A DNA stretch of 64,000 nucleotides from a virus. The notes beneath the pieces were generated by a model, which did no database searches, had not been told where the DNA came from, and saw nothing but the letters and a program-made list of their open reading frames with translations. The first letter of the stretch is position 1. Each line of letters begins with the position of its first letter. A program made the translations under genes and the position numbers. The stretch spans positions 1 through 64,000 of IMG/VR virus record IMGVR_UViG_3300022668_000040, one strand, 5' to 3'. Below, piece by piece: positions 1,859 to 35,759 of the stretch.

Positions 1859-2491
1859 ATGAAACGTACTTTACGAAGAAAAATTAAGAAAAAAAATTCA
1901 GAATCCAAATCTGAATCACTTAATCTTACTCCAAAACGAAAACGGATAAAGAGATATAAAAAACAGCGGTGTGCGTATATTTTAGAGGATGGCTTACAAT
2001 GTTCATCCTATGCTGTTGGAAAGGGGACTTTATGTAAAAAACATGGTGGAAATCCAATCATAAAAGAAAATTTGGTAAATGAATCTGAAGCAGCCCTTAT
2101 TATTGGGAAACGATCAAAATATAATCCTGAAACGCATCCAATCTTATACATTCATTTTGCTAAAAGAGGATTTTCTGAAGTAGAAATAGCCGCAGAATTC
2201 AAAGTCTCTGTTGAAACTCTTCATAATTGGGCTGAAAGGTATGTTATTTTCAATGAGGCCTATGAAATTGGAAAAGCTCTTCATGAAGCATGGTGGCTTG
2301 AACAAGGAAAGGCAAATTTGGAAAATAGGAGTTTCAATACTGCTTTGTACAAGTTTCTGACCAGTAATAAACTTGGATATTCTGATAAAATGGAATCAAA
2401 AAGCCTCAATATGAATATTCATGGAGTTTTAAAGGTACCGGATAAAGTATCTGAAGAAGAATGGGAATCAGATATTATTGATATTGAATAG
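1859..2491 (+). CDS. terS: Terminase small subunit (putative)
   Basis: A 210-residue protein that probably recognises the packaging site and loads the large terminase. The basic N-terminus is followed by a possible zinc-binding cluster (Cys at about 38 and 48, then CKKH near 59). Next comes a helix-turn-helix around residues 100-125 (GFSEVEIAAEFKVSVETL) and the aromatic region EAWWLEQGK followed by LGYSDK near 175, a pattern typical of phage small terminases. The acidic C-terminus may contact the large subunit. It lies three genes upstream of the large terminase. The HTH and position support the call; the zinc site is an observation without known function here. Confidence 0.7.
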   Translation: MKRTLRRKIKKKNSESKSESLNLTPKRKRIKRYKKQRCAYILEDGLQCSSYAVGKGTLCKKHGGNPIIKENLVNESEAALIIGKRSKYNPETHPILYIHFAKRGFSEVEIAAEFKVSVETLHNWAERYVIFNEAYEIGKALHEAWWLEQGKANLENRSFNTALYKFLTSNKLGYSDKMESKSLNMNIHGVLKVPDKVSEEEWESDIIDIE

Positions 2492-2494
2492 AAT

Positions 2495-4141
2495 ATGAAA
2501 CGATCAAGACCCATAATTAAAAAATTAAAGAATGCTCAAGAAGATTTTGAGTGGTACCCAACCACAAAAGCAATTCTTGCTGTTATTCATAAAGATTTAG
2601 AGAAATTCTATATTCGGGAGTTCTCCTTATTAGATCCTTGCGCAGGAGATGGCCGTGCGCTCACCTCTTTATGTCCTAAAGGAATAAAATATGGAGTGGA
2701 AAAAAGCTCTATATTACGTGAATGCTGGCACAAAGATATTATTCCTATAGGAACAGACTTTTTTGGTACAAATTTAATAAATATAGGGGCCTCAGTAACA
2801 TTTTGCAACCCTCCCTATTCAGAATATTCAGAGTGGGCTTCCAAAATAATTAGAGAAACTGAATCTGAATTACTTTATTTTGTTATTCCTGCTAGATGGA
2901 GGAATAACAAAAATATTAAATTAGCATTAGCGGACAGAAAACTTACGTATAAAGTAATTGGAAAAGCTGATTTTAACACAAATGTAGATTCTGGAGAACG
3001 AAAAGCCAGAGCGGTTGTTGAAATTATTAGATTTGATAATCGAGGATCACATATTAGGCGGCCTGTAGATTATGGGCAATATACTTACAATGCTGATCCT
3101 TCTACAGCGTTTAAATTATGGTATTCTAAAACATTTTCAAGATCTTTTAAAGAATCAAAAGAAGAGCCACCATTCACCGAATCAGTACAGAAGCATGCAA
3201 TTGTTTGTGGAAGTTATATTCAAGCACTTGTGGAACTCTATAATAGAGAAATGCAGCAACTGCATGAATCATTCACCGCAATTAATAATCTTCCCGATAA
3301 TATTTACCAGATATTAGGTCTTTCAAAGAGTAATTTGAGCAAGGTTTTATTGGGAGAGTTAAATAGATTAAAGAAAAAATATTGGTCAGAATTTTTTAAG
3401 CAATATAAACCAATAAAACAAAGGTTGACAAAGAAAAACAGAGTGGATCTGTTAAAAACGCTGCCCATAAGCATAGATTTTACTGAAGAGAATGCTTTAG
3501 CTGTGACTGTTTGGGTATTAAAAAAAGTACAGAGTATGCTTGATTCCCAGGTGATAGATTTGATGGAGGGACTGCTTACAGCCACATCCATCAAACCATA
3601 TAAATCCAATCAAAAAACATTTGATTTGGATGAGTGGAGATTCAATAGTACTTCTTGGCAGGAAAAGCATAGTCATTATGGCATATCTATGGATTATCGA
3701 ATTGTGGTGTGTAGGCCTGAAAATACACTGCAAAAGTCTCATGATCCTTTTAGAACTACATACATAAATAAAATGGCAGAGCACACTCATGATTTTTTAA
3801 ATGATATTATGACAACTGCCAGAAATATGGGTGTATCTGTTAACTTGGAAGAAGATTCTAAAACCAGAAATTGGGAACAACGAAAGCCGGAAGTGTTCAT
3901 GTTGAGTAATGGAAACCCATTTATGGAGGTTCGTGCTCATTTTAATGGAAATTTACATATAAAATTTGATCAAGGATTTTTAAAAATTTTTAATGTGGAA
4001 TTTGGAAGATTAAAAGGGTGGCTAAGACACAAAGAGGATGCTGCATCTGAACTTGGACTTGATGCACATGAGGTAGCTCAATTTTGGAAATCAAATGGTA
4101 ATTTTCGATTGGGTACTTATTTAAAACTATTAATGGTATAG
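2495..4141 (+). CDS. DNA methyltransferase with C-terminal DUF4942-like domain
   Basis: A 548-residue putative N6-adenine methyltransferase. The SAM-binding motif I is DPCAGDGRAL near residue 48, and the catalytic motif IV is NPPYSEYSEW near residue 105. Around residues 380-548 the sequence resembles DUF4942 (including FMEVRAHFNGNLHIKF), a domain often fused to phage methyltransferases. It starts 3 bases after the small terminase stop and may protect phage DNA from host restriction or mark packaging substrates. Target specificity cannot be read from sequence. No restriction partner is visible nearby, so it appears to be an orphan methylase. Confidence 0.8.
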   Translation: MKRSRPIIKKLKNAQEDFEWYPTTKAILAVIHKDLEKFYIREFSLLDPCAGDGRALTSLCPKGIKYGVEKSSILRECWHKDIIPIGTDFFGTNLINIGASVTFCNPPYSEYSEWASKIIRETESELLYFVIPARWRNNKNIKLALADRKLTYKVIGKADFNTNVDSGERKARAVVEIIRFDNRGSHIRRPVDYGQYTYNADPSTAFKLWYSKTFSRSFKESKEEPPFTESVQKHAIVCGSYIQALVELYNREMQQLHESFTAINNLPDNIYQILGLSKSNLSKVLLGELNRLKKKYWSEFFKQYKPIKQRLTKKNRVDLLKTLPISIDFTEENALAVTVWVLKKVQSMLDSQVIDLMEGLLTATSIKPYKSNQKTFDLDEWRFNSTSWQEKHSHYGISMDYRIVVCRPENTLQKSHDPFRTTYINKMAEHTHDFLNDIMTTARNMGVSVNLEEDSKTRNWEQRKPEVFMLSNGNPFMEVRAHFNGNLHIKFDQGFLKIFNVEFGRLKGWLRHKEDAASELGLDAHEVAQFWKSNGNFRLGTYLKLLMV

Positions 4142-4142
4142 T

Positions 4143-4673
4143 ATGACAGTTATAATTGGATTAATAGATAATAATACTATTCTAATGGGCGGAGATTCAG
4201 CAGCCACAAATGGAAGTTATTTGGATATTTTGGACACACAAAAAGTATTCCAGAAAGAAGAATTTTTGTTTGGAGTTGCAGGAGTTCTCAGAGTCGCGCA
4301 AGTATTAGAACATTGTTTTAGAATTCCAAATAGATTAGACCACAAATCTGATATGGGATATCTAGTTTCTGAATTTGTGCCATCTTTTCAAGATGAATTA
4401 TCTACTTATTGGGATATCAACGCAGAGCATAACCAAAATTGGAGTGTTCTCATCGGATATCGAAGCAATCTGTATTGTTTGGAAGGTAATTTTCAAATAA
4501 TAAAGCCCAAAAAAGATTATTATAGCATAGGTTCTGGTTCCGATTGTGCTTTAGGAAGCTTACATTCAACTGAAAAGTTATCATTGTCGGCAAATGATAG
4601 ATTAAACTTGGCATTTGACGCAGCTAGTCAGTTTTATGCCTCTGTCAGTCCTCCTTTTCATATTCTTATGTAA
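4143..4673 (+). CDS. HslV/proteasome-beta-like Ntn hydrolase
   Basis: A 176-residue protein of almost exactly HslV length. After removal of Met1, Thr becomes residue 1. Asp17 (in GGDSAATNG) and Lys33 (in DTQKVF) then fall at the numbers of the catalytic Thr1, Asp17 and Lys33 of proteasome beta subunits and HslV. The FGVAG motif and a GSGSD segment also fit the fold. It sits between the methyltransferase and the terminase genes with no HslU-type ATPase nearby, so it may use a host unfoldase or act alone, perhaps in capsid maturation or cleavage of host proteins. Family assignment is strong; the biological role is inference. Confidence 0.8.
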   Translation: MTVIIGLIDNNTILMGGDSAATNGSYLDILDTQKVFQKEEFLFGVAGVLRVAQVLEHCFRIPNRLDHKSDMGYLVSEFVPSFQDELSTYWDINAEHNQNWSVLIGYRSNLYCLEGNFQIIKPKKDYYSIGSGSDCALGSLHSTEKLSLSANDRLNLAFDAASQFYASVSPPFHILM

Positions 4674-4675
4674 AA

Positions 4676-5113
4676 ATGAACAGAATTCTGAAAAAATATG
4701 GATTAAAAAAATTTCCAAAAATATCTATGCAATCTGTACGTATGCGCAGATATTGGAAAAATAGAACAAAGGAGCAAAAAAAAGAATTTTCTAAGAAATG
4801 CTCAGCTGCAAAGAAAGAAACATACAAAAATAATCCAAAATTAAGGAAAAAACGCGCTGAAGTTTTGAGAAAAACATCCTTGAATTATTGGAAAACAGTA
4901 AGTGAAGAAAAAAGGAAAGAACATATTAAAAAAATGAGTATTGGGATGAAAAAAGCTTGGAAAAATCCAGATCCTTCTTTTGGATCTAGGGTAACGAATA
5001 AAAATAATTTGTTGCGACTTAATGGGAATTTGGAAATTATAGATGGTCTTCCCAGGGTAAATACCTATTCTGGAGTAATCACGGAATCAGATCTGGAACA
5101 ATTAAATGATTAA
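4676..5113 (+). CDS. Basic protein with two NUMOD-like repeats
   Basis: A 145-residue, very basic protein. Two repeats of about 30 residues share the pattern YWKnRTKEQKKEFSKKxS and YWKTVSEEKRKEHIKKMS, each followed by WKNP or YKNNP. These resemble the DNA-binding NUMOD3 motifs of homing endonucleases, but no nuclease domain follows. It overlaps the start of the large terminase by 8 bases, so it is translationally coupled and probably assists packaging or binds DNA. It could be the remnant of a homing endonuclease co-opted by the phage. The repeats are seen directly; the role is not known. Confidence 0.6.
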   Translation: MNRILKKYGLKKFPKISMQSVRMRRYWKNRTKEQKKEFSKKCSAAKKETYKNNPKLRKKRAEVLRKTSLNYWKTVSEEKRKEHIKKMSIGMKKAWKNPDPSFGSRVTNKNNLLRLNGNLEIIDGLPRVNTYSGVITESDLEQLND

Positions 5114-7619
5114 GCCAAAAGTTATATGGGAACCATATCCTGGGGCTCAGGTAAAATTTTTAACATGTCCAGCCTGGGAATGTCTTTTACACGGTAACCG
5201 GGGTGGGGGAAAGGGGTTACTCCCTTCTGAAAAAGTATTAACCCCTAGAGGATGGACAACTGTCGGAGAATTGAAGAAGGGATCGGTAATATCTAACCCT
5301 GATGGATCTTCTCAATCTGTCATTGCCGTATACCATAGGGACAAACAGCAAATGTATGAACTTACATTCTCTGATGGAACAAAAATTGAATGTGATGAAG
5401 ATCATTTGTGGTTTGCTAAAATAGCAAATAGAACTAAAGGCAAAACGGTAAGAAATTATATGCCTTTAGATTTTTACGGATCAATTCATAGAACAGGTGA
5501 TTTGTACGCTCTTCTTAAAAAATATCCTCATAAGCATCCTCTAATACCGTGTAATGATCCTATAAAATATCAACAAAATTGGAAAACTGTGATTAACCCA
5601 TATGTATTGGGATTAATTTTGGGAGATGGATCTATAAAGGATCTTGAAACAAGAATCACAGTATCGGATAAAGAAATAAAAGAAACTTTGGAATTATTGG
5701 GAGCTGTTTCTTATCGTGATAAAAGAAGAAATTATTTATTTTCATGTAAATTTTCTAGGCAGTCGCATATAGCCAAGCAAGTAGATGTTTTGGGGCTCAG
5801 AGGAAAAGATTCTTCTACTAAATTCATTCCTGAAAGAATTTTACGCGGAACAGTAAAGGAACGTAAGGTATGCTTACAAGGGTTAATGGATTCAGACGGT
5901 ACTGTTGATAAAGATGGGAGATGTTCTTTTACTACAATCAGTTCTAGTTTAGCAAAAGATACCAGACAGCTAATCCTTTCTTTGGGAGGGTGGGCTACAA
6001 TTTCTAAAAAAACACCAACTTACACATACGATGGAAAAGTCAAAACAGGGAAATTAGCATACACATTATACATTCAATTTCCTAAAAAATCGGAATTATT
6101 CACATTAAAAAGGAAGAAAGAACGCTGCACATTTGCTGATTATGCACATGGTAGATTGGTTAGAACTATTACATCAATAGTAAAATTAAAAGATAAGAAA
6201 CAAACTATATGTATAGTTGTAAATAATCCAAATAGATTGTTTGTAACTAAAGATTTTTTGGTTACTCATAATACGGATGTACTTATAATGGATTATCTCC
6301 AAGGTGTGGGTAGGGGGTATGGCCCAGATTATAAAGGCCTCCTATTGCGAGAAGCCACAACGGAACTTGGGGATGTTATATCAAAGTGCAAAAAATGGAT
6401 ACCTAAAATATTTCCAACTGCTAAGTACAACAATTCAAAGAAAATTTGGACATTTGAAGATGGGGAAACTTTATGGTTGAATTATGCGAGGGTGCTAGAT
6501 GATTATGAACAGTATCATGGACATGAATATCCGTGGATAGGATGGGAGGAGCTTACAAATCATCCACTACCTGCTGTTTATCTAAAATTAATGTCATGTA
6601 ATCGATCATCTAACCCAAATATTCAAAAAAAATATAGAGCCACATGTAATCCTAGTGGGCCAGGACATCAATGGGTAAAGGAAAGATTCATAGATACTGT
6701 CAAGGCGGGGAAAATTCATAGGGAGATAATGAAGGTAGAATTTCCAGATGAACATGGGGATTTAGTAAAAAAGGAGTTTACGGTCACAAGAACCCACATC
6801 AAAAGTTACTTCTCTGAAAACAAATCGATTCTCAAGGCTGATCCGTTGTATATGGCGAAAATTCATACATTAACAGAAGATAATCCTATGTTGAGAAAGG
6901 CCTGGATCGAAGGATCTTGGGATCTTTTGATAGGGGGATTTTTTACTGATGTTTGGGACCCAAAAATTCATATTATTCCTTGGTTTCCAATTCCAAGATC
7001 ATGGAGGCTATACAGAAGTTTTGATTGGGGATCATCAAAACCTTGGGCTGTTACCTACGGATTCGAGAGTAATGGAGAACAACCTGATGTTGATGGTATT
7101 CCATACATTCCAAAAAATTCTATTATTATTCCAGATGAATTGTACGGGTGGAATGGTACTGCAAATCAGGGAGATCCCTCTCAAGCACTTTCTTCTATAA
7201 TTGCAGATAGGGTACATCGGAAAGATAAACAATTGCTTTTAGAATATGGTGTTAGAGTACATGCAGGACCAGCAGATACTCAAATTTGGGAAGTACGTGA
7301 TGGTAAAAGCATCGCAACTGAATTATCTACTCATGGGTGTAGATGGACAAAGGCACATAAAGGGCCGGGATCAAGGGTGTCAGGTTGGTCTGTTATCCGC
7401 CAAATGCTGGGAGCTGCAAAGAGAAAAGATTTGGAAAACCCTCATTTATACTTTTTTGATTCTGCTGCCCATCATATTCGTACACTTCCTTTAATGCAAA
7501 GAGATTCAACAAACATTGAGGATATAGATACAGATCTTGAAGATCATGCTATGGATTCTTTGAGATACCTATTGACAAGGAAATTGACAAGAATTCAGCA
7601 GAGAAAGGTAGGAATGTAA
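5106..7619 (+). CDS. terL: Terminase large subunit precursor containing an intein
   Basis: An 837-residue precursor. Removing residues 37-389 joins GNRGGGK to TDVLIMDY, restoring a perfect Walker A motif (GxxxxGKT) and giving a 484-residue packaging motor. The Walker B-like WIGWEELTN lies near residue 465. The C-terminal nuclease has the RNase H-type signature SFDWGSSKPWAV near 640, and DLEDHAMDSLRYLL near the end supplies another acidic metal ligand. The gene overlaps its upstream neighbour by 8 bases and its stop overlaps the portal start (TAATG). ATPase activity depends on splicing because the intein splits the nucleotide-binding loop. Confidence 0.92.
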   Translation: MIKPKVIWEPYPGAQVKFLTCPAWECLLHGNRGGGKGLLPSEKVLTPRGWTTVGELKKGSVISNPDGSSQSVIAVYHRDKQQMYELTFSDGTKIECDEDHLWFAKIANRTKGKTVRNYMPLDFYGSIHRTGDLYALLKKYPHKHPLIPCNDPIKYQQNWKTVINPYVLGLILGDGSIKDLETRITVSDKEIKETLELLGAVSYRDKRRNYLFSCKFSRQSHIAKQVDVLGLRGKDSSTKFIPERILRGTVKERKVCLQGLMDSDGTVDKDGRCSFTTISSSLAKDTRQLILSLGGWATISKKTPTYTYDGKVKTGKLAYTLYIQFPKKSELFTLKRKKERCTFADYAHGRLVRTITSIVKLKDKKQTICIVVNNPNRLFVTKDFLVTHNTDVLIMDYLQGVGRGYGPDYKGLLLREATTELGDVISKCKKWIPKIFPTAKYNNSKKIWTFEDGETLWLNYARVLDDYEQYHGHEYPWIGWEELTNHPLPAVYLKLMSCNRSSNPNIQKKYRATCNPSGPGHQWVKERFIDTVKAGKIHREIMKVEFPDEHGDLVKKEFTVTRTHIKSYFSENKSILKADPLYMAKIHTLTEDNPMLRKAWIEGSWDLLIGGFFTDVWDPKIHIIPWFPIPRSWRLYRSFDWGSSKPWAVTYGFESNGEQPDVDGIPYIPKNSIIIPDELYGWNGTANQGDPSQALSSIIADRVHRKDKQLLLEYGVRVHAGPADTQIWEVRDGKSIATELSTHGCRWTKAHKGPGSRVSGWSVIRQMLGAAKRKDLENPHLYFFDSAAHHIRTLPLMQRDSTNIEDIDTDLEDHAMDSLRYLLTRKLTRIQQRKVGM
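5214..6272 (+). mobile_element. Class 3 intein with LAGLIDADG endonuclease domain in terL
   Basis: Precursor residues 37-389 (353 aa). The N-terminal residue is Gly, not the usual Cys or Ser. The class 3 signature is complete: Trp102 in block B (DHLWF), Cys369 in block F (TICIVV) and Thr387 in block G (VTHN). Asn389 ends the intein and Thr390 is the first C-extein residue. Two dodecapeptide motifs, LGLILGDGS near 168 and LQGLMDSDGTV near 257, indicate a LAGLIDADG homing endonuclease, so the element is potentially mobile. Insertion exactly inside the Walker A loop of TerL is a typical conserved-site choice. Confidence 0.9.
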
Positions 7620-9112
7620 TGGGAGAATATGTAAAGAAGAATTCGGCTAGCACAAAACATCCTGATTATACTAAAAATGAGAAAGCTTGGGTACGAATTA
7701 GGGATTGCGTGTTAGGAGAAGATGCTATTAAGGCAAAAACTGAGGTTTATTTGCCTAGACCTAAAGGAATGTCTGGGATATATGCTGATGCGTATGATGC
7801 ATATTTGGAACGAGCACATTTTTCTTTGGTAACTTCTTATGCTCTATCTGGTGCCCTTGGTGTGGTGATTTCCAAGTTACCTGAATTTAATGTGCCATCA
7901 GAATTAGAATATATTCTAAAAGATGCTACGAAAGATGGACGGCCTATTCAGCAGTTATTTTTAGATATTATTATCGAAATATTCCAAACAGGAAGGGTGC
8001 CGCTGTTGGTAGATGTAGCTGAAGATAAGAATGAATTTAGGTTTGTGCAGTATAAAGCTGAAGATTTTATAAATTGGAAAACATCCATTTTAAAATCTGA
8101 AAAAAGTTTGACTTTGGGAGTTCTTAAAGAGCAAATTCCTGATTCTGATGATATATTTTCTCACAGTGTTCAAGACATTTATCGGGTTCTTTCTTTAGAT
8201 GAAAATGGAAACTATGTTTCCAGAGTATTTGGGGATAAAGAGGAGTATGTAGATATGAGGACCGCACCTTTATTTTTGGGAGATCCTTGTGAAGAAATTC
8301 CTTTAATTGTAGCAGGATCAATAAGCAATAGTTTTGATATTCAACCTATTCCATTAATAGCAGTAGCTAATTGTGCTATTCAAATATATAGAAAGGAAGC
8401 TGATCTTGCAAATTCAGAGTTCCTTTCTTGTAATCCTACTTTGGTAATAACAGGAGCATCAAATGATGATGATATTCCAACGGTTGTGGGGTCATCTGTA
8501 CTTTTTGTTGTTCCAAATGAGGCTTCCAGAGTTTTTTATACTACTACAGATACAGCAGCACTGACCCATGTCAAGGAGCACATAGATAGTCTGTATGAGG
8601 AAGCTATTAGGCATGGTGTAGCTATTCTGGATTCCAGAAAAGGTGTGGAGGCCGCAGAAGCATTGAGGATTAGACAAGCTACTCAATCAGCGTCAGTATA
8701 TTCTATTTATTTAGCGGCATTAAATGCTATCAAACAAGGCCTTGTATTAATGTGTAAGTGGGGTGGGTACGATGAGGATAAAATAGTTTTGGATGCTCCA
8801 GCCTCATTATCTCATGGAATTCCAGATTCGGCAGTTATCAAAGCTGTGAATGAGGGTTTTGGACAAGGAGTAGTTCCACTTACAGTAATTCATAGATATT
8901 TGGTAGCATCAGGATTACTGGAACAAACAGTAGGTTTTGAAGATTATGTTCAAATGTTAAATGATGATAAAGATGTAAGATCATTATTGCAGGATGATAA
9001 TTCAGGAGAAAATACTTCTGAAAATAATAATAACAAGAAAGCACCTTCTGAACAGATAAAAGTGTCTGATAAATCTGTAAAGGAATCAGAAGGAACTGAA
9101 GATCAACTTTAA
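7619..9112 (+). CDS. Portal protein, DUF4055-like
   Basis: A 497-residue protein that should form the dodecameric DNA gate of the capsid. The N-terminal pattern (KHPDY, then WVRIRDCVLGEDAIKAK, YLPRP and AYLERAHF) matches the DUF4055 family of phage portal-type proteins. Its position, sharing one base with the large terminase stop and followed by scaffold and coat genes, supports this. The C-terminal 40 residues are rich in Asn, Lys, Glu and Ser and look disordered. Confidence 0.8.
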   Translation: MGEYVKKNSASTKHPDYTKNEKAWVRIRDCVLGEDAIKAKTEVYLPRPKGMSGIYADAYDAYLERAHFSLVTSYALSGALGVVISKLPEFNVPSELEYILKDATKDGRPIQQLFLDIIIEIFQTGRVPLLVDVAEDKNEFRFVQYKAEDFINWKTSILKSEKSLTLGVLKEQIPDSDDIFSHSVQDIYRVLSLDENGNYVSRVFGDKEEYVDMRTAPLFLGDPCEEIPLIVAGSISNSFDIQPIPLIAVANCAIQIYRKEADLANSEFLSCNPTLVITGASNDDDIPTVVGSSVLFVVPNEASRVFYTTTDTAALTHVKEHIDSLYEEAIRHGVAILDSRKGVEAAEALRIRQATQSASVYSIYLAALNAIKQGLVLMCKWGGYDEDKIVLDAPASLSHGIPDSAVIKAVNEGFGQGVVPLTVIHRYLVASGLLEQTVGFEDYVQMLNDDKDVRSLLQDDNSGENTSENNNNKKAPSEQIKVSDKSVKESEGTEDQL

Positions 9113-28246: not shown

Positions 28247-29224
28247 ATGGCATCAGTATTTAGATCATTTCAAGACACGGGAGCCCCTATTTTAGCAGGA
28301 AATACTTTGGGGTCACTTATCACTTTGTTAAAAGCTGTATTGGTAGATGGTTATGGGTCATTCGATCCTTTAGGATGGGAAGTGGTATTTGATGATACTG
28401 CTTCTCACTCCTGTGTTTTTAGACCTTTAGGTGGGGATCTTCGTCCATTTGTGCTAGTTCAAGATAATATGGGTTCCACCAGTGACCAATACGCAAAGGT
28501 CACTGTATTTGAATCTATGTCCTCTATTTCTGAAGGATTTTTTCAATGTCCGTCGGGTGAATCAGATTTGGATAATTATATAATCAAATCAAAGTATAAT
28601 ACGAGTGTGGGTATTCCTTGGGTAATAATAGGAGATAATCTTGGATTTTGGTTATTAACTAGGCCATACGACCAGACTGGAACAGGAGCTGATCTTAATA
28701 ATGGATCTCTGCATTATCCTCATTATATTGGATATTTTCCGTGTTTTATCTTAGAAAATAAATATAATTTTATTACTATTTTAAACAATAAAAGTGATGT
28801 AATGTTTCGCGCCAATCTTGAAACATATGGATGTTATATGCAAAGAGATCCGTTTACTTCAGAAATAGGGGCTGTCAAGTTCACCCCAACAATTCAATAT
28901 AGTGCGGGTGATAATGCATTTGGAAACAGTTGTCCAAACTCTTCCCCTAGAAGTGGTAAATATATGTATGAACCAGTTGTTGTGGTATATGATAACTGTC
29001 CCACAATAGGGCTGCTTCCAGGGTACTTTAGTATGCTTTGGCAAACTGAAGTTGAGGGTGCTTCTTGGTATACACAGAGTGAAGAAGAAAGAACCCCATT
29101 TTTTGAATATGGGCAAAATTCATCAATGTACATATTTGCCCAAAGAGTACGGGGTTACTCATATAATAGTGTAGTGAGCAGGGGATCTATATTAGTTGGA
29201 GAGGGTTTTCGCAATGCATATTAA
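28247..29224 (+). CDS. Tail structural protein
   Basis: A 325-residue protein beginning MASVFRSFQDTGAPILAG, of a kind found next to tail fibre genes in large siphophages. It is rich in aromatic residues and Gly/Ser and has no signal or membrane segment. GAGGA precedes the start. Its 3' end overlaps the start of the LamG protein gene by 11 bases, so the two are co-translated. Exact function unknown; a tail-tip component is inferred. Confidence 0.55.
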   Translation: MASVFRSFQDTGAPILAGNTLGSLITLLKAVLVDGYGSFDPLGWEVVFDDTASHSCVFRPLGGDLRPFVLVQDNMGSTSDQYAKVTVFESMSSISEGFFQCPSGESDLDNYIIKSKYNTSVGIPWVIIGDNLGFWLLTRPYDQTGTGADLNNGSLHYPHYIGYFPCFILENKYNFITILNNKSDVMFRANLETYGCYMQRDPFTSEIGAVKFTPTIQYSAGDNAFGNSCPNSSPRSGKYMYEPVVVVYDNCPTIGLLPGYFSMLWQTEVEGASWYTQSEEERTPFFEYGQNSSMYIFAQRVRGYSYNSVVSRGSILVGEGFRNAY

Positions 29225-32200
29225 AAAGAGATATATTTCTAATGTTTTTTTAGCAGTAACGGCTAAACAAAAATTATCAGGTAACGTATCCTCCCCTAGT
29301 AGTGGTCTATCTACAATTTTTATTTTAGATAGAAACACTATGAATTTGATTGCGACCACAATAGCTGATCCACAAACGGGAGATTGGGTTTGTTATGTTC
29401 CTTTTAGAAATGATGAGCAATTAATTGCTATTTGTCGAGATGAATCAGGAGATTTTAACGCAGACATATATGATAGAATTTCTCTTTGTACCAATGATTA
29501 TGTGCATGTAGTGGAATTCAATTCCATTGTTATTCCAGGAGAAGATTTGTTTTTTATGTTGGAATCTCCCAAGCAAACGGGCGCAGTGGCTGGATTTCCA
29601 CATGAAGTGCAACATAGAGATTTGAAATCCACAATAAGTACCATTGGTTGTGGTAATAATTTGAATGAGAGTATATTTAAAAATATTAGTGAAGTACAAC
29701 TTTCTATTGGGGAGGGTGGGGATATTCCAGAAGTAGTTCCAGGATCGTTAATAAATGGGAATTCTGGTATTTGGCCTGAACTAACCACTGATGATAGGGA
29801 AAATAGAGGAGTAAAAACACCAGATATATTTGGAGACAGCTCTTGCAGGTTATGTTTAGATTTTAAGGATGGCCTTCTCATAGATAAAACAGGCACCCAA
29901 ATTGTGGAATATGCAAAGAGTCAATTTAGGGCAGCCCCCGGAAAATACAATAGTGGATTTGGTAACGCAAATTTATCATTTCACAATATTTTTGATTTAG
30001 GAATAAATTTTATCTCGGGGGAAGCAAATGCTCTCTCATTTTGGGTAAATATTAATGAGCTTGAGTACACAGGTGCAGACACATATATTGTACACCATTC
30101 TTCTGATTATGGTTTCAGATTGGGTTTTAGACCAAGCACACGAACAATATATCTATCTGTTGGTTCAGATACTAGCTGGAGTATAAATAATCAATATATT
30201 ACTCTACCCGTGTATCCTTACGTATATTTTGCATACAACAGTTGGGTCCATTTTGTGGTAAGCATCGGGGTTTCTTCTTCCAAAATATATGTTGACGGGC
30301 AGTTGGTAAAAACTTTTACTGGTAATGGGTTCACTGCATCTACTGGAACGTTGATATTCAATTCTGAGCTAACCAATAGAGGAACTAAAAGCACATTCGA
30401 TATCATCAGGGTATTTAATAGAGAAATTACTGATGGTGAGGCAATACAGCTATTTGAAGAAAAGAAAATGTCCACTGTTTCTGTAACAGGGATATATGGC
30501 GTAAATCCAGCTATAACAGATAAATTAATCCTTAATGGACTTTCATCTCCTCCTATATGTAACTTTAGGCTGGATGGCCATTTTGCAGATGTTTCCGATA
30601 GTAATTTCTCAGGATATCTTGATGGTGTATTCTTCAATAACGATTTTATAAATTTTGATGGAACTAATGGAATACATTCCTCAGAATTGTCTACAGATAT
30701 AGGAACAGGTTCTGTGGGGGATGAAGGTGCAATTGATTTACTTTGTAAATTTTCTTTAGAAGATATAACCAATATAGGCACTAGCTGTTTATATAAATCT
30801 GGGGATAATTCTAATGGGATTGCTTTAGGATTTAATGCCGTAGGGGATTTATGTATTTTCGGGTGCCTTTCTGGAACAGTAACTGCTATTTCCATCTCAT
30901 TGTCATATTTAACAGATAATGGGTGGTATTATGTTATTGGCTCTAAAAAAGAACTAATATTATTAAATGAAAAATTAGAAAAAATTGCCAGTTCAAAAGG
31001 GACCATAGAAGTTGGAAACGGGAGTAACCAACAATCCGTAGGTATAGTAGTTGCTGGGAGCCCTCTTACAGCAACGGCGGGAGGCCCTATTCAAGGATTT
31101 ATTGGAAGTATAGAAAAAGTTGGTATATACGAGGAAAATACTCTTTCTGTTGATTTTTTAGATAATTTGCAATTAGCCTGTGAAGTAGGATCTACAGGGC
31201 AGCAGTGCTATGGGGAAGTGTCTAAATGGGATATTTTAGATGATGAAATAATCATATGGGTGAAAGTTCCGACTATCTCCAATGCCGAGGACACAGTTCT
31301 TAGATTTTATTTTTCTGCCGGTGCAGTGCCCAATACTACCTACATGGGACATACTGGAGATGTCCAAGCTCAACAAGTTTGGGATTCAAATTATGTGGCT
31401 GTATATCATTTAGAAAGTGATGGAACAACCATCAAAGACTCTACTGCAAATAGTAATAATTTAACTCTATCCGGGGGTTCTATTGAAGAAGGAATAATCT
31501 TTGATGGAGTATCAGATTATGCTTTTGTAGATTCTTCAACTTTAAAATTAGGGGATGGAGATTTTTCATATGAAGTATTGTTAAAAAGAACATCCCAACA
31601 ATCTTCATTAGGAATTGTTATGACTGGAGGACAAACAGGCAGTTTGCTTTCTCCTATTTTGGGCATCATGCCAAATTCAGAGGTGATTCAATTTGGTACG
31701 GATGTGGGGTATATTTATGGAGGAACACTATCATATGATTCTGAGTATGTAGCTGCTACCTATGATGGGTTAGGTCAATTTTCTGGATTATCTCTGTACG
31801 TTGATGGGGCAAGCATCAGTACAAATACACAAGGAGCATTTTCTGGATTTTCTAATTCAGCAGAATATTTTACTGTTGCGGCTGAATTAGATGATGGTGC
31901 TCTTTCTAAGTTCTTTGAAGGAAATATTCAAGAAGTGCGTGTATCTTCCATCAAAAGAAATGCAGATTGGATAGCACTTACAAATAAATCTATTTCCGAC
32001 AATTTAATAACATTTATTGGAAATTATGTTAAACCATCCCTGTCTGGGTATGAAAATGCTAAATCAATGCATATTCAGATAGATGCGACAAAAATTGGGG
32101 AACAGTTATCTAATTTTCCAATTTTGTTACAAATAAATGCAAATGCAGGTATTAATGGAACAGATCTTTCTGAAATACTAACTGAGTTGCGAACACCAAA

Positions 32201-35200
32201 AAATCAGGAAGATGATCTATTATTTGGATTTATTGGAAATCAAAAAGATGGGTCCAGCGTTATTGCAGATTTTTCTATACATAATAAGCAGATAACAAAT
32301 GAGGGATGTACTCATTCCACGCAGTATATGAATAAAACTCTAGCTTCAGTTTTGTTTGAATCTAGTAGATTATTGATAGAACCATTTGATCTTCCTCTTT
32401 TTTGGAATGATATGACCATTGAATGGTGGGAATTTCGTATTAAAGGTGTATCTGCCAGTGCTATTCTTACTAATAGAGTACCAGGAGGAGAGTATACAGG
32501 AATGCTGATAGGATATCAATATGGTAGCAATATGTTGTGTTACATGAGATCAAATAAAAGTGCTTCGTGGGATATTTTAAGTGGAGTATCTATGGGCGCT
32601 ATAGATTATCTCACTTGGAATCATTTTGCCATTTCTAAAAAAGGGAATATATATAGAACATTTAAAAATGGTATTAAAATTAGTGAAGTTTCCTCTGATT
32701 TGATTCCTTATAATTCCACAAATCCAATAAAAATTGGACAAGATCAGAATTACTTTTCTGGAGCAATACAGAGTTTGCGGGTATCTCAAAAGTGTAAATA
32801 TGTGGAGAATTTTACACCAGTTATGAACTCAGATGGGCTTGTGTCCTATTCTAGGTTAGCCATTGAACACGTTCAAACAGGTCAGCAATGTTATGCTGAG
32901 ATTGCTTGTATAAAAGAAGATAATTTAGATATTTTTGTTAATATTCCCTCAATTTCAGATACTACAGATGAGGATTTATTACTAATATATGGCAATGAGT
33001 TAGACGAGAACTCTGACTATGTTTCCATTACCGGAGAAGATCGAATTAATTCGTTACTCAGATCTTGTGTTATCAATGATGAGTACTCAAACTCTGTTGT
33101 ATGGAGAACTCCAATTCCGCCAGAAATGTTTTCAGATATTCCTTCTGGGAAAAAAATAGCTTTTATATTTCCGCATATGGGTAATGATTACACTGTACAG
33201 GGTGTGTTTATAGGGCTACAAGCATCTTCAGGAGGGGCCTCAGATTTTGAACCAGGAACCAAAGTCCAACTAACATTTAATGGTGGAGATAATGGATCTT
33301 TAATTACATCCACTAATAATACTACAGATTTTGTTTTATTTAATTTTGGGGAATTAGATACTATAGTTATCTCCTTTCAACAAGTTAGTGGTAGTCAGCC
33401 TCGTAATACTGGAGAAAATGGGCTTACTACCTATTATAAATTTACTACAGATGAAGTATCCGGGGATGATGTAGTAAGTGGATTGTCTACTACACCATAT
33501 ATTATGAGGCCATTACATGTGATTACGGAGCCCGAAAGACCATATCAAAAGGTTTGGGATGATTCTTTCCTATCTGTATACCATTTAGTAAACAGCAGTA
33601 GTGGTGCAGAATCTGTGTACGACTCCACTATTAATAAAAATCATTTAACCCCATATGGTAGTTTGCCAGGGAAAATTACCACAGAGGATGGACTTTCATT
33701 TTCTAGTAGTTCAAACGATTATATAAATGGGACGGGGGATTTTTCCAGCATTATAGATGAATATTCCCTGGAAGTGTTCCAAAAATGGAATACGATTCCT
33801 GGGGAATGGGACACTGTTATTCGTATAGGGCAAGCAAATCAAGCCGGGGCTATTATGATGGGGACATACTCAACATCTTCTTATTGGGATGTTGGTGTAT
33901 GGTATGATCATTTACAATCCTCTACTCCTTTAAATAGTGATATGCAGCATACTGCCATAACATTTGAAAATGGGGATGCTAAAATTATTCAAAATGGAGT
34001 TTTTGGAGGAACTAATTCTGTAGCTTTACAAACTTTTACTGAGTTTTCTACTATTTTTATTGGTGGGGATACTCAAGGAAGTGGAACAGAAATGAGTGAT
34101 CAGACTATTAAGGAGATACGTATATCAAACACTGCAAGGAGTCAGCATTGGTTACGGGCCACAGAATACTCTCTTCATGATAATTTATTATTATATATTG
34201 ATCATTCTGCGCATGAATCCCCGTTATCTGGATGGGAAGAGCATCAGCCAGTAACGGCAATAATTTCTGCAAATGATGTAAATACTACGGTAACAGACTT
34301 TCCTGTTATGATACGAATTTCACAAGAATCAGGCAAAAATGCTGTGAATTTATTTCATATTTTGAATGAGTTTAGAAGCCAAGGCACTTTTGCAGGAAAT
34401 GTTATCCAATCATATGAATTTAATTCTACAAACAGATTAGATGGTATGTTTATGGATAATTTGCAATTTTCCTCCAACAACTTGTTTATGGAAAATCACG
34501 CAATGGAGTTTTTTCAAGATGGGAGTTCTACTATAACTCTTTCACCAAAATTAAGAGATGTATTGGTTCAAGAGGATCTCACCTATTGTTTTTGGATAAA
34601 TCCTTATGCTAGTAGGAATACTTCAGGATCTGATACAAAAAAATCCATATTTGGTACCAAATATAGTGCTGAGGTAGCTATAATATATCATTATGCAGAA
34701 TATGTAGAATTTTATATGGATAGTGACTTAATTAGAACCTCAGATGGGAGTGTTCCATTACATAAATGGACTTTTGTGGTTTTTGTAAGAAATAAAGAGG
34801 AAGATACGGTCAAAATTTATCTAAACAATAAAGTGGCTGCACAGGGAACTTATAATTATTCCTTATCTTATTCAAATTGGCCTATACTTCTTGGAGATAG
34901 TCAAACTGATTATCCATTTGTTGGTGGACTTTCAGATTTTATGATATTTGACAGAGCTTTACTCCCAGAAGAAATACATCAGATATATTTTAATAGAAGG
35001 TATGTAACGTTCAAAAATGTTTGGAGTGTATCTATATTTACGGCACAAAGTGAATTTCCTTTGTTTTTAAATGAAACTATTTCTTCTATTAATATAGAAG
35101 CCACAGAAAATGGACAATATGTGTCCCTGTGTTTTACCACTGATCAAAATACCTATTGGATATATTCTGGTTCTAACTGGGTTGCGATAGCTTCTAATGA

Positions 35201-35759
35201 TGAAAATATTCATGGGGATGTTGGAAGTGATGCTTGGCATTTTAAAAATTCTGCTGATGTATGGACATTATCTTCTAGTAATGAACCTATGAATACAATT
35301 GCTATGGCATTAGATTTCCAAGAAAATAGGATGGGCTATAGTACGGTAAATAATTTAAACCAAACAGCTATCCATGAATTATTTTCTTCAATAGAAGGTG
35401 TTTTTGATGTGGCTATAGGGTTAAAAACTAATAATGATTATGAGTTGCCAGAAGTAACAAAGGTAAAATACAATAATTCAGAATATTGGGTATCTAAAGT
35501 ATATGATTTAGCTTATATGGATGGGGCAATAGTCTCTTCAAATGTTAGTTGGATTTATAGGGATTCTTCAGACCATATCAAAGTGTTTGTTATGATCACT
35601 GGTAATCCCAATTGGGTAGAATGCACTAATAACAGTCCTATCCCTGGAATTACTTACCAAATGAATACAGTAGGAAAAGTTATGCAATTTAAAGTGGTAT
35701 TTGACTTTGATACAAATGCAAGCCCTGATGATATAGAGCTTGCAGTAAAATTGATATGA
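29214..35759 (+). CDS. Giant LamG/DUF2341-type tail adhesin
   Basis: About 2181 residues from the ATG at 29214, chosen because GGAGAGGG lies 10 bases upstream. Several concanavalin/LamG-like domains are visible (FWVNI near 280, ITNIGTSCLYKSG near 520, FSYEVLLKRTS near 785, MTIEWWEFRI near 1070, YSLEVFQKWN near 1520, YCFWINPYA near 1795). Two DUF2341-like units start with TGQQCY(G/A)E (near 665 and 1230) and continue with WVKVPTIS or VNIPSIS. LamG folds bind sugars or proteins, so this is the best candidate for the receptor-binding fibre. An N-terminal tail-attachment region of about 220 residues precedes the repeats. Confidence 0.8.
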   Translation: MHIKKRYISNVFLAVTAKQKLSGNVSSPSSGLSTIFILDRNTMNLIATTIADPQTGDWVCYVPFRNDEQLIAICRDESGDFNADIYDRISLCTNDYVHVVEFNSIVIPGEDLFFMLESPKQTGAVAGFPHEVQHRDLKSTISTIGCGNNLNESIFKNISEVQLSIGEGGDIPEVVPGSLINGNSGIWPELTTDDRENRGVKTPDIFGDSSCRLCLDFKDGLLIDKTGTQIVEYAKSQFRAAPGKYNSGFGNANLSFHNIFDLGINFISGEANALSFWVNINELEYTGADTYIVHHSSDYGFRLGFRPSTRTIYLSVGSDTSWSINNQYITLPVYPYVYFAYNSWVHFVVSIGVSSSKIYVDGQLVKTFTGNGFTASTGTLIFNSELTNRGTKSTFDIIRVFNREITDGEAIQLFEEKKMSTVSVTGIYGVNPAITDKLILNGLSSPPICNFRLDGHFADVSDSNFSGYLDGVFFNNDFINFDGTNGIHSSELSTDIGTGSVGDEGAIDLLCKFSLEDITNIGTSCLYKSGDNSNGIALGFNAVGDLCIFGCLSGTVTAISISLSYLTDNGWYYVIGSKKELILLNEKLEKIASSKGTIEVGNGSNQQSVGIVVAGSPLTATAGGPIQGFIGSIEKVGIYEENTLSVDFLDNLQLACEVGSTGQQCYGEVSKWDILDDEIIIWVKVPTISNAEDTVLRFYFSAGAVPNTTYMGHTGDVQAQQVWDSNYVAVYHLESDGTTIKDSTANSNNLTLSGGSIEEGIIFDGVSDYAFVDSSTLKLGDGDFSYEVLLKRTSQQSSLGIVMTGGQTGSLLSPILGIMPNSEVIQFGTDVGYIYGGTLSYDSEYVAATYDGLGQFSGLSLYVDGASISTNTQGAFSGFSNSAEYFTVAAELDDGALSKFFEGNIQEVRVSSIKRNADWIALTNKSISDNLITFIGNYVKPSLSGYENAKSMHIQIDATKIGEQLSNFPILLQINANAGINGTDLSEILTELRTPKNQEDDLLFGFIGNQKDGSSVIADFSIHNKQITNEGCTHSTQYMNKTLASVLFESSRLLIEPFDLPLFWNDMTIEWWEFRIKGVSASAILTNRVPGGEYTGMLIGYQYGSNMLCYMRSNKSASWDILSGVSMGAIDYLTWNHFAISKKGNIYRTFKNGIKISEVSSDLIPYNSTNPIKIGQDQNYFSGAIQSLRVSQKCKYVENFTPVMNSDGLVSYSRLAIEHVQTGQQCYAEIACIKEDNLDIFVNIPSISDTTDEDLLLIYGNELDENSDYVSITGEDRINSLLRSCVINDEYSNSVVWRTPIPPEMFSDIPSGKKIAFIFPHMGNDYTVQGVFIGLQASSGGASDFEPGTKVQLTFNGGDNGSLITSTNNTTDFVLFNFGELDTIVISFQQVSGSQPRNTGENGLTTYYKFTTDEVSGDDVVSGLSTTPYIMRPLHVITEPERPYQKVWDDSFLSVYHLVNSSSGAESVYDSTINKNHLTPYGSLPGKITTEDGLSFSSSSNDYINGTGDFSSIIDEYSLEVFQKWNTIPGEWDTVIRIGQANQAGAIMMGTYSTSSYWDVGVWYDHLQSSTPLNSDMQHTAITFENGDAKIIQNGVFGGTNSVALQTFTEFSTIFIGGDTQGSGTEMSDQTIKEIRISNTARSQHWLRATEYSLHDNLLLYIDHSAHESPLSGWEEHQPVTAIISANDVNTTVTDFPVMIRISQESGKNAVNLFHILNEFRSQGTFAGNVIQSYEFNSTNRLDGMFMDNLQFSSNNLFMENHAMEFFQDGSSTITLSPKLRDVLVQEDLTYCFWINPYASRNTSGSDTKKSIFGTKYSAEVAIIYHYAEYVEFYMDSDLIRTSDGSVPLHKWTFVVFVRNKEEDTVKIYLNNKVAAQGTYNYSLSYSNWPILLGDSQTDYPFVGGLSDFMIFDRALLPEEIHQIYFNRRYVTFKNVWSVSIFTAQSEFPLFLNETISSINIEATENGQYVSLCFTTDQNTYWIYSGSNWVAIASNDENIHGDVGSDAWHFKNSADVWTLSSSNEPMNTIAMALDFQENRMGYSTVNNLNQTAIHELFSSIEGVFDVAIGLKTNNDYELPEVTKVKYNNSEYWVSKVYDLAYMDGAIVSSNVSWIYRDSSDHIKVFVMITGNPNWVECTNNSPIPGITYQMNTVGKVMQFKVVFDFDTNASPDDIELAVKLI

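Follow-up and report, generated by a model that had tools for sequence, protein, structure and literature searches.

A class 3 LAGLIDADG intein between the Walker A lysine and threonine of a phage terminase large subunit

The window analysed here is a 64,000-nucleotide stretch (positions 1 to 64,000) of the 76,088-base uncultured viral record IMGVR_UViG_3300022668_000040. It carries on its plus strand a terL precursor gene at 5106..7619, whose 837 aa product is made up of a 36 aa N-extein, a 353 aa intein and a 448 aa C-extein. Joined together, the exteins (residues 1-36 + 390-837, 484 aa) match PHROG 979, terminase large subunit, with an E value of 2.2e-26, and the C-extein is ~43% identical to annotated TerLs from Pseudomonas, Stenotrophomonas and Sphaerotilus phages. 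The gene is flanked by a TerS-like gene (1859-2491, PHROG 309) and a portal gene (7619-9112, PHROG 145), and the identity of the host protein as TerL is supported by this placement, by homology and by the Walker A motif. No second, intein-free TerL copy was found in the whole record, where terL at 5106-7619 is the sole TerL.

Several other genes of the window merit mention in their own right. The packaging cluster includes, just 5' of terL, a gene for an HslV/proteasome-subunit-like peptidase (4143-4673, plus strand; PHROG 1040 1e-20, Pfam Proteasome 8e-5). A small Lys-rich ORF (4676-5113, plus strand) overlaps the terL start by 8 bases and encodes repeated KKAWKNP-like segments that, by eye, resemble the DNA-binding modules of homing enzymes; searches of Pfam and PHROG gave no significant match to it. 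Further away, a 2187 aa tail-region protein (29196-35759, plus strand) contains five Laminin_G_3 (concanavalin-like) domains and is possibly a glycan-binding receptor protein. On the minus strand lies a gene for a Ro60/TROVE protein (57050-58672; vWA_Ro60 7e-49, TROVE 1e-36), with a tRNA-Met-like gene (anticodon CAT, 56536-56611) on the same strand ~440 nt 3' of it. The latter matches only tRNA in Rfam, and may be either a genuine tRNA or part of a Y RNA, namely its tRNA-like module.

The intein comprises precursor residues 37-389 and occupies 5214..6272, inserted in phase 0 between the AAG codon of Lys36 and the ACG codon of Thr390, so that Walker A is split as GNRGGGK^T. The first part of the motif, GNRGGGK (residues 30-36), lies at 5193..5213, and Thr390 (6273..6275) is both the predicted +1 splicing nucleophile and the Walker A threonine of mature TerL. 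A preliminary description had placed an intein at exactly these coordinates in the terminase Walker A motif, and a residue-by-residue check confirmed both its coordinates and its residue numbers. There is no N-terminal nucleophile, as intein residue 1 is Gly37 (5214..5216). Block B reads DEDHLW (5394..5411) and supplies Asp97, His100 of a DxxH motif and Trp102 of the WCT triplet; block F contributes Cys369 (6210..6212), which conservation marks as the predicted initiating nucleophile; and block G, likewise conserved, consists of Thr387-His388-Asn389 (6264..6272), the intein ending THN^T. In intein numbering W102, C369 and T387 of the precursor become W66, C333 and T351.

Between the splicing blocks sits a homing endonuclease domain whose approximate limits, taken from Pfam and structural alignment, are intein residues 111-307 (5544..6134). 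The two LAGLIDADG motifs noted previously are evident both in the sequence, as YVLGLILGDG in block C (intein 130-139, 5601..5630) and LQGLMDSDG in block E (intein 221-229, 5874..5900), and in Pfam matches over the cut-off (LAGLIDADG_3 1.2e-9, Hom_end 7e-7). Pfam Intein_splicing and TIGR01445 both scored below their cut-offs against the intein, which is expected because it is a divergent class 3 element interrupted by an endonuclease. We found no further LAGLIDADG domains or inteins in the record, a result that covers Pfam-detectable inteins only, since PF14890 misses the TerL intein too. Composition was considered as a sign of foreign origin and set aside as not decisive, the intein being slightly AT-richer than the extein (33% versus 39% GC).

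As defined in PMC6195587, PMC5050341 and PMC7664689, class 3 inteins lack a position-1 nucleophile, carry the W/C/T set and end in His-Asn. The block B histidine in this class usually lies in DxxH rather than TxxH (PMC6195587). The present intein has no Cys or Ser at position 1, the WCT triplet, DxxH, a terminal His-Asn, a +1 Thr and a Hint fold. A sequence search of the PDB matched its splicing half to solved class 3 and gp41-1 inteins (E 1.5e-8 to 2.2e-6), Mycobacterium class 3 DnaB inteins among them, and the WCT triplet (Trp B:12, Cys F:4, Thr G:5) aligns with that of DnaBi1 (6bs8). The AlphaFold (AF2) model of the intein is of high predicted quality (pLDDT 92.3, pTM 0.90). Over its whole length it resembles PI-SceI (Z ~27, 3.3-3.8 Å, 16-19% identity). 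Its splicing domain superimposes on the M. smegmatis class 3 DnaB intein with Z 18.3 and 1.5 Å over 123 residues, and the Hint fold scores Z ~18 against class 3 DnaB inteins and Z 16.8 against gp41-1; I-DmoI and I-Tsp061I align over intein residues ~123-313. Sequence, homology and predicted structure all uphold the class 3 assignment first made from the Gly start together with W102, C369 and T387.

Searching IMG/VR with the joined extein returned 31 loci. Of the TerL relatives, at least 12 that are close to full length (57-75% identity across almost all of the extein) carry an uninterrupted GNRGGGKT, and because these relatives read through the motif the insertion is not a chance feature. Together with the K36^T390 junction they bear out the earlier claim of an exact GxxxxGK^T interruption. 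Five more loci of the same TerL family (L002, L012, L019, L040 and L213) and one more distant TerL (L113) have an intein at the codon interrupted in the window TerL. On the extein tree the intein bearers are scattered among empty rows, L019 pairing with L030 (100/97) and L012 with L007 (95/92), which is the pattern that homing and loss would be expected to leave. Residues W66, C333, T351, H64, H352 and N353 are invariant across the same-site sisters and one distant relative. Three same-site sister inteins retain all catalytic residues and appear to be under purifying selection, with approximate dN/dS between sisters of 0.09-0.12 for the splicing domain and 0.14-0.21 for the endonuclease, figures that are only rough because dS is near saturation (~2).

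The P-loop intein of L213 (L213:852-1736) has lost the LAGLIDADG aspartate of both motifs (GGLLASS, QGLMDIGG), yet its W, C and THN are intact, so retention of the splicing residues does not depend on the endonuclease. This locus represents a more advanced stage of the homing cycle. Within one TerL family it is thus possible to follow that cycle through invasion, decay and absence, and the uncultured phage lineage described here offers a complete class 3 homing intein, close empty-site relatives, and both intact and decayed sisters.

To place the intein among its wider relatives, profile searches were run, finding 582 in IMG/VR and 308 in one-genome-per-species bacteria and archaea; keeping the best 80 of each gave a survey of 154 non-duplicate, alignable loci. 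Within that best-80 survey the block F Cys was present in 154/154, the block G Thr and His each in 153/154 and the terminal Asn in all 154, while the +1 residue was Thr in 127 and Ser in 27; Cys, Thr and the +1 residue formed no part of the search patterns. Block B His and Trp were found in 153/154, the motif 1 Asp (intein 138) in 146/154 and both Asp residues of motif 2 in 154/154, although the search patterns included ...HLW and ...GLMD, so that the Trp and block E Asp counts are partly biased. Position 1 is mostly Ala or Gly among the 154. Nearly all junctions are GK^T/S, with GK in 149/154, a figure that leans that way because the intein starts were set with the help of GK. Host proteins, judged from their flanks and profile-tested for the terminases only, appear to include terminases, DnaB, AAA proteins and RecG-like and SNF2/SF2-like helicases. 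The TerL inteins form a cluster on the intein tree, with 5 label changes versus 27 in shuffles, and the window intein groups with L002 and L012 (100) and then with L019 and L040 (99). Inteins of class 3 with LAGLIDADG domains form a large, widespread family at GK^T/S P-loops, common in both phages and bacteria, and packaging ATPases emerge once more as one of the main hosts of this class.

A separate observation concerns a second site in the same gene. The putative Walker B motif of the window TerL, YPWIGWEE (6528..6551, C-extein), is uninterrupted, and in some TerL relatives it is the site of a different insertion: six loci (L018, its near-identical copy L017, L020, L025, L211 and L213) carry there an in-frame insertion of 1047-1257 nt that is distinct from the P-loop intein. 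Relatives without the insertion have HEYPWIGWEE at this point; with it, the context is HE[YF]^...N^C-[WYF]IGWEE (HSY in L211). Read in the sense direction, the insertion resembles a class 1 intein: its first residue is Ser or Cys, and it has a block B of HPVLT...GW, a DFEVE block F, a terminal Asn and a +1 Cys; its Hint matches are weak (Vint 8.5e-4, below cut-off). On the opposite strand an open stretch of 315-325 codons runs through the insertion in L020 (337-1551), L025 (1777-3000, antisense ORF 2878..1916) and L211, a length reached in none of 500 codon shuffles. In L018 (1744-3000) the antisense ORF (2878..2348) is split, and in L213 (~2001-3044) it is not evident. HNH_3 matches the antisense strand of L018 at 5e-12, over the cut-off, and that of L025 at 2e-4, under it; L025 also has several helix-turn-helix matches there. 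Between L020 and L025 identity is 59% in the antisense frame versus 46% in the sense frame, and in both comparisons with L211 the two frames differ little. The element would be an intein with its endonuclease gene on the strand opposite to its own splicing frame, an arrangement that looks unusual, more so than the P-loop intein itself. The nearest published case that we found is an insertion in ShiLan, in which an HNH is encoded out-of-frame on the same strand, without splicing domains (PMC11855218). The TerL of L213 bears both insertions, the P-loop class 3 intein and the Walker B element.

Taking these lines together, the element in the window is very probably a full-length class 3 homing intein, self-splicing and mobile, lodged between the Walker A Lys and Thr of a phage TerL. 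By analogy with class 3 inteins that have been tested, Cys369 would attack the K36-G37 peptide bond, giving a branched intermediate at block F; transfer of the acyl group to Thr390 would follow, and Asn389, aided by His388, would cyclise. Ligation of the exteins should restore GNRGGGKT and an active ATPase; since the P-loop is complete only after splicing, TerL should be inactive beforehand, and DNA packaging would then depend on splicing. As for mobility, the endonuclease fold, its pair of LAGLIDADG motifs each retaining the catalytic Asp, and the patchy presence alongside empty sites in close relatives are what a homing intein displays. Intein-free terL alleles would be cut at the conserved P-loop DNA by the released intein or by the precursor, and the intein would be copied into the cut allele through recombination.

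Other readings of the locus deserve consideration. An RNA-level intron or an assembly artefact is extremely improbable: nothing was found in its favour, the frame is open across both junctions with Hint and endonuclease homology in frame, and the same-codon insertion recurs in other contigs. An Rfam scan, in which tRNA was the sole match in the window and the relatives gave none, found no intron and speaks against this reading. That the element is a class 1 or class 2 intein merely resembling class 3 is scarcely credible to us. The Hint fold is common to both; however, position 1 lacks Cys or Ser, block F has Cys where class 1 has Asp, and Trp at B:12 and Thr at G:5 are present. The sequence matches to class 3 DnaB inteins also argue against it, as does the fold search, which ranks these above most class 1 splicing domains. 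We consider it very unlikely that the intein is decayed and non-splicing, leaving a non-functional TerL or assembled genome. A decayed class 3 intein does exist as a precedent in the Arsp-FB24 Arth_1007 pseudogene (PMC3196547), but here the catalytic residues are all intact, the frame is open, dN/dS is low and the gene, the sole terL of the record, is otherwise intact.

A regulatory role, in which packaging waits for a redox cue or one from late in infection before the block F Cys can start splicing, seems to us improbable, if less so than the alternatives above. The class 3 P-loop intein DnaBi1 of M. smegmatis is reversibly inhibited by oxidation (PMC6195587), and an insertion at this site would leave TerL inactive until spliced. 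However, a DnaBi1-like redox pair (Cys48-Cys118) is not conserved, the position of Cys48 aligning near Met47 of the window intein, and selfish homing accords with the intact endonuclease and with the patchy distribution. Close relatives without any intein imply that it has no essential regulatory role; such a role is possible and not needed to explain the element. We would likewise give little weight to the broader idea that splicing at the P-loop acts as a switch on genome packaging, governed by timing or stress, with TerLs of the L213 type needing both ATP-site motifs spliced for the motor to work. A self-splicing homing intein remains the preferred reading.

Among known systems, PI-SceI (the Sce VMA intein), a class 1 intein, shares the two-domain Hint and LAGLIDADG architecture and differs in its eukaryotic V-ATPase host and in its sequence (16-19% identity). 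DnaBi1 (PDB 6bs8), in which class 3 chemistry and splicing have been demonstrated at a P-loop (PMC6195587), has the WCT triplet, DxxH and P-loop insertion in common with the window intein; in contrast, its host is DnaB, it lacks an endonuclease, its +1 residue is Ser and it has the redox partner Cys48. The mycobacteriophage TerL1-a intein occupies the same site, the invariant Lys^Thr of the TerL P-loop, according to passages of Kelley et al. 2016 (PMC5050341), which tie class 3 to TerL1-c and TerL1-e and not to TerL1-a. Several isolated phages also carry a class 3 intein in the P-loop of their TerL: Klebsiella phage K64-1 (and Rak2), Pseudoalteromonas phage HM1, Parabacteroides phage PF672P2 and Klebsiella phage YC1. 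These inteins all have a TerL host (the family assigned by profile for HM1 and PF672P2), the GK^T junction, the block B W, block F C, THN^T and a LAGLIDADG insert, and for K64-1 and Rak2 the presence of Hint and LAGLIDADG domains in TerL has been published (PMC5259590). Their TerL backbones are nevertheless distant from that of the window, and the HM1, PF672P2 and YC1 inteins are only ~32-37% identical to the window intein. The rarity implied by the preliminary description does not hold, with class 3 inteins widespread at P-loops and TerL P-loop cases already present in these isolates. Neither the kind nor the site of the insertion is new, and the intein, for which splicing is predicted, is a real, intact and ordinary addition to the known class 3 P-loop inteins.
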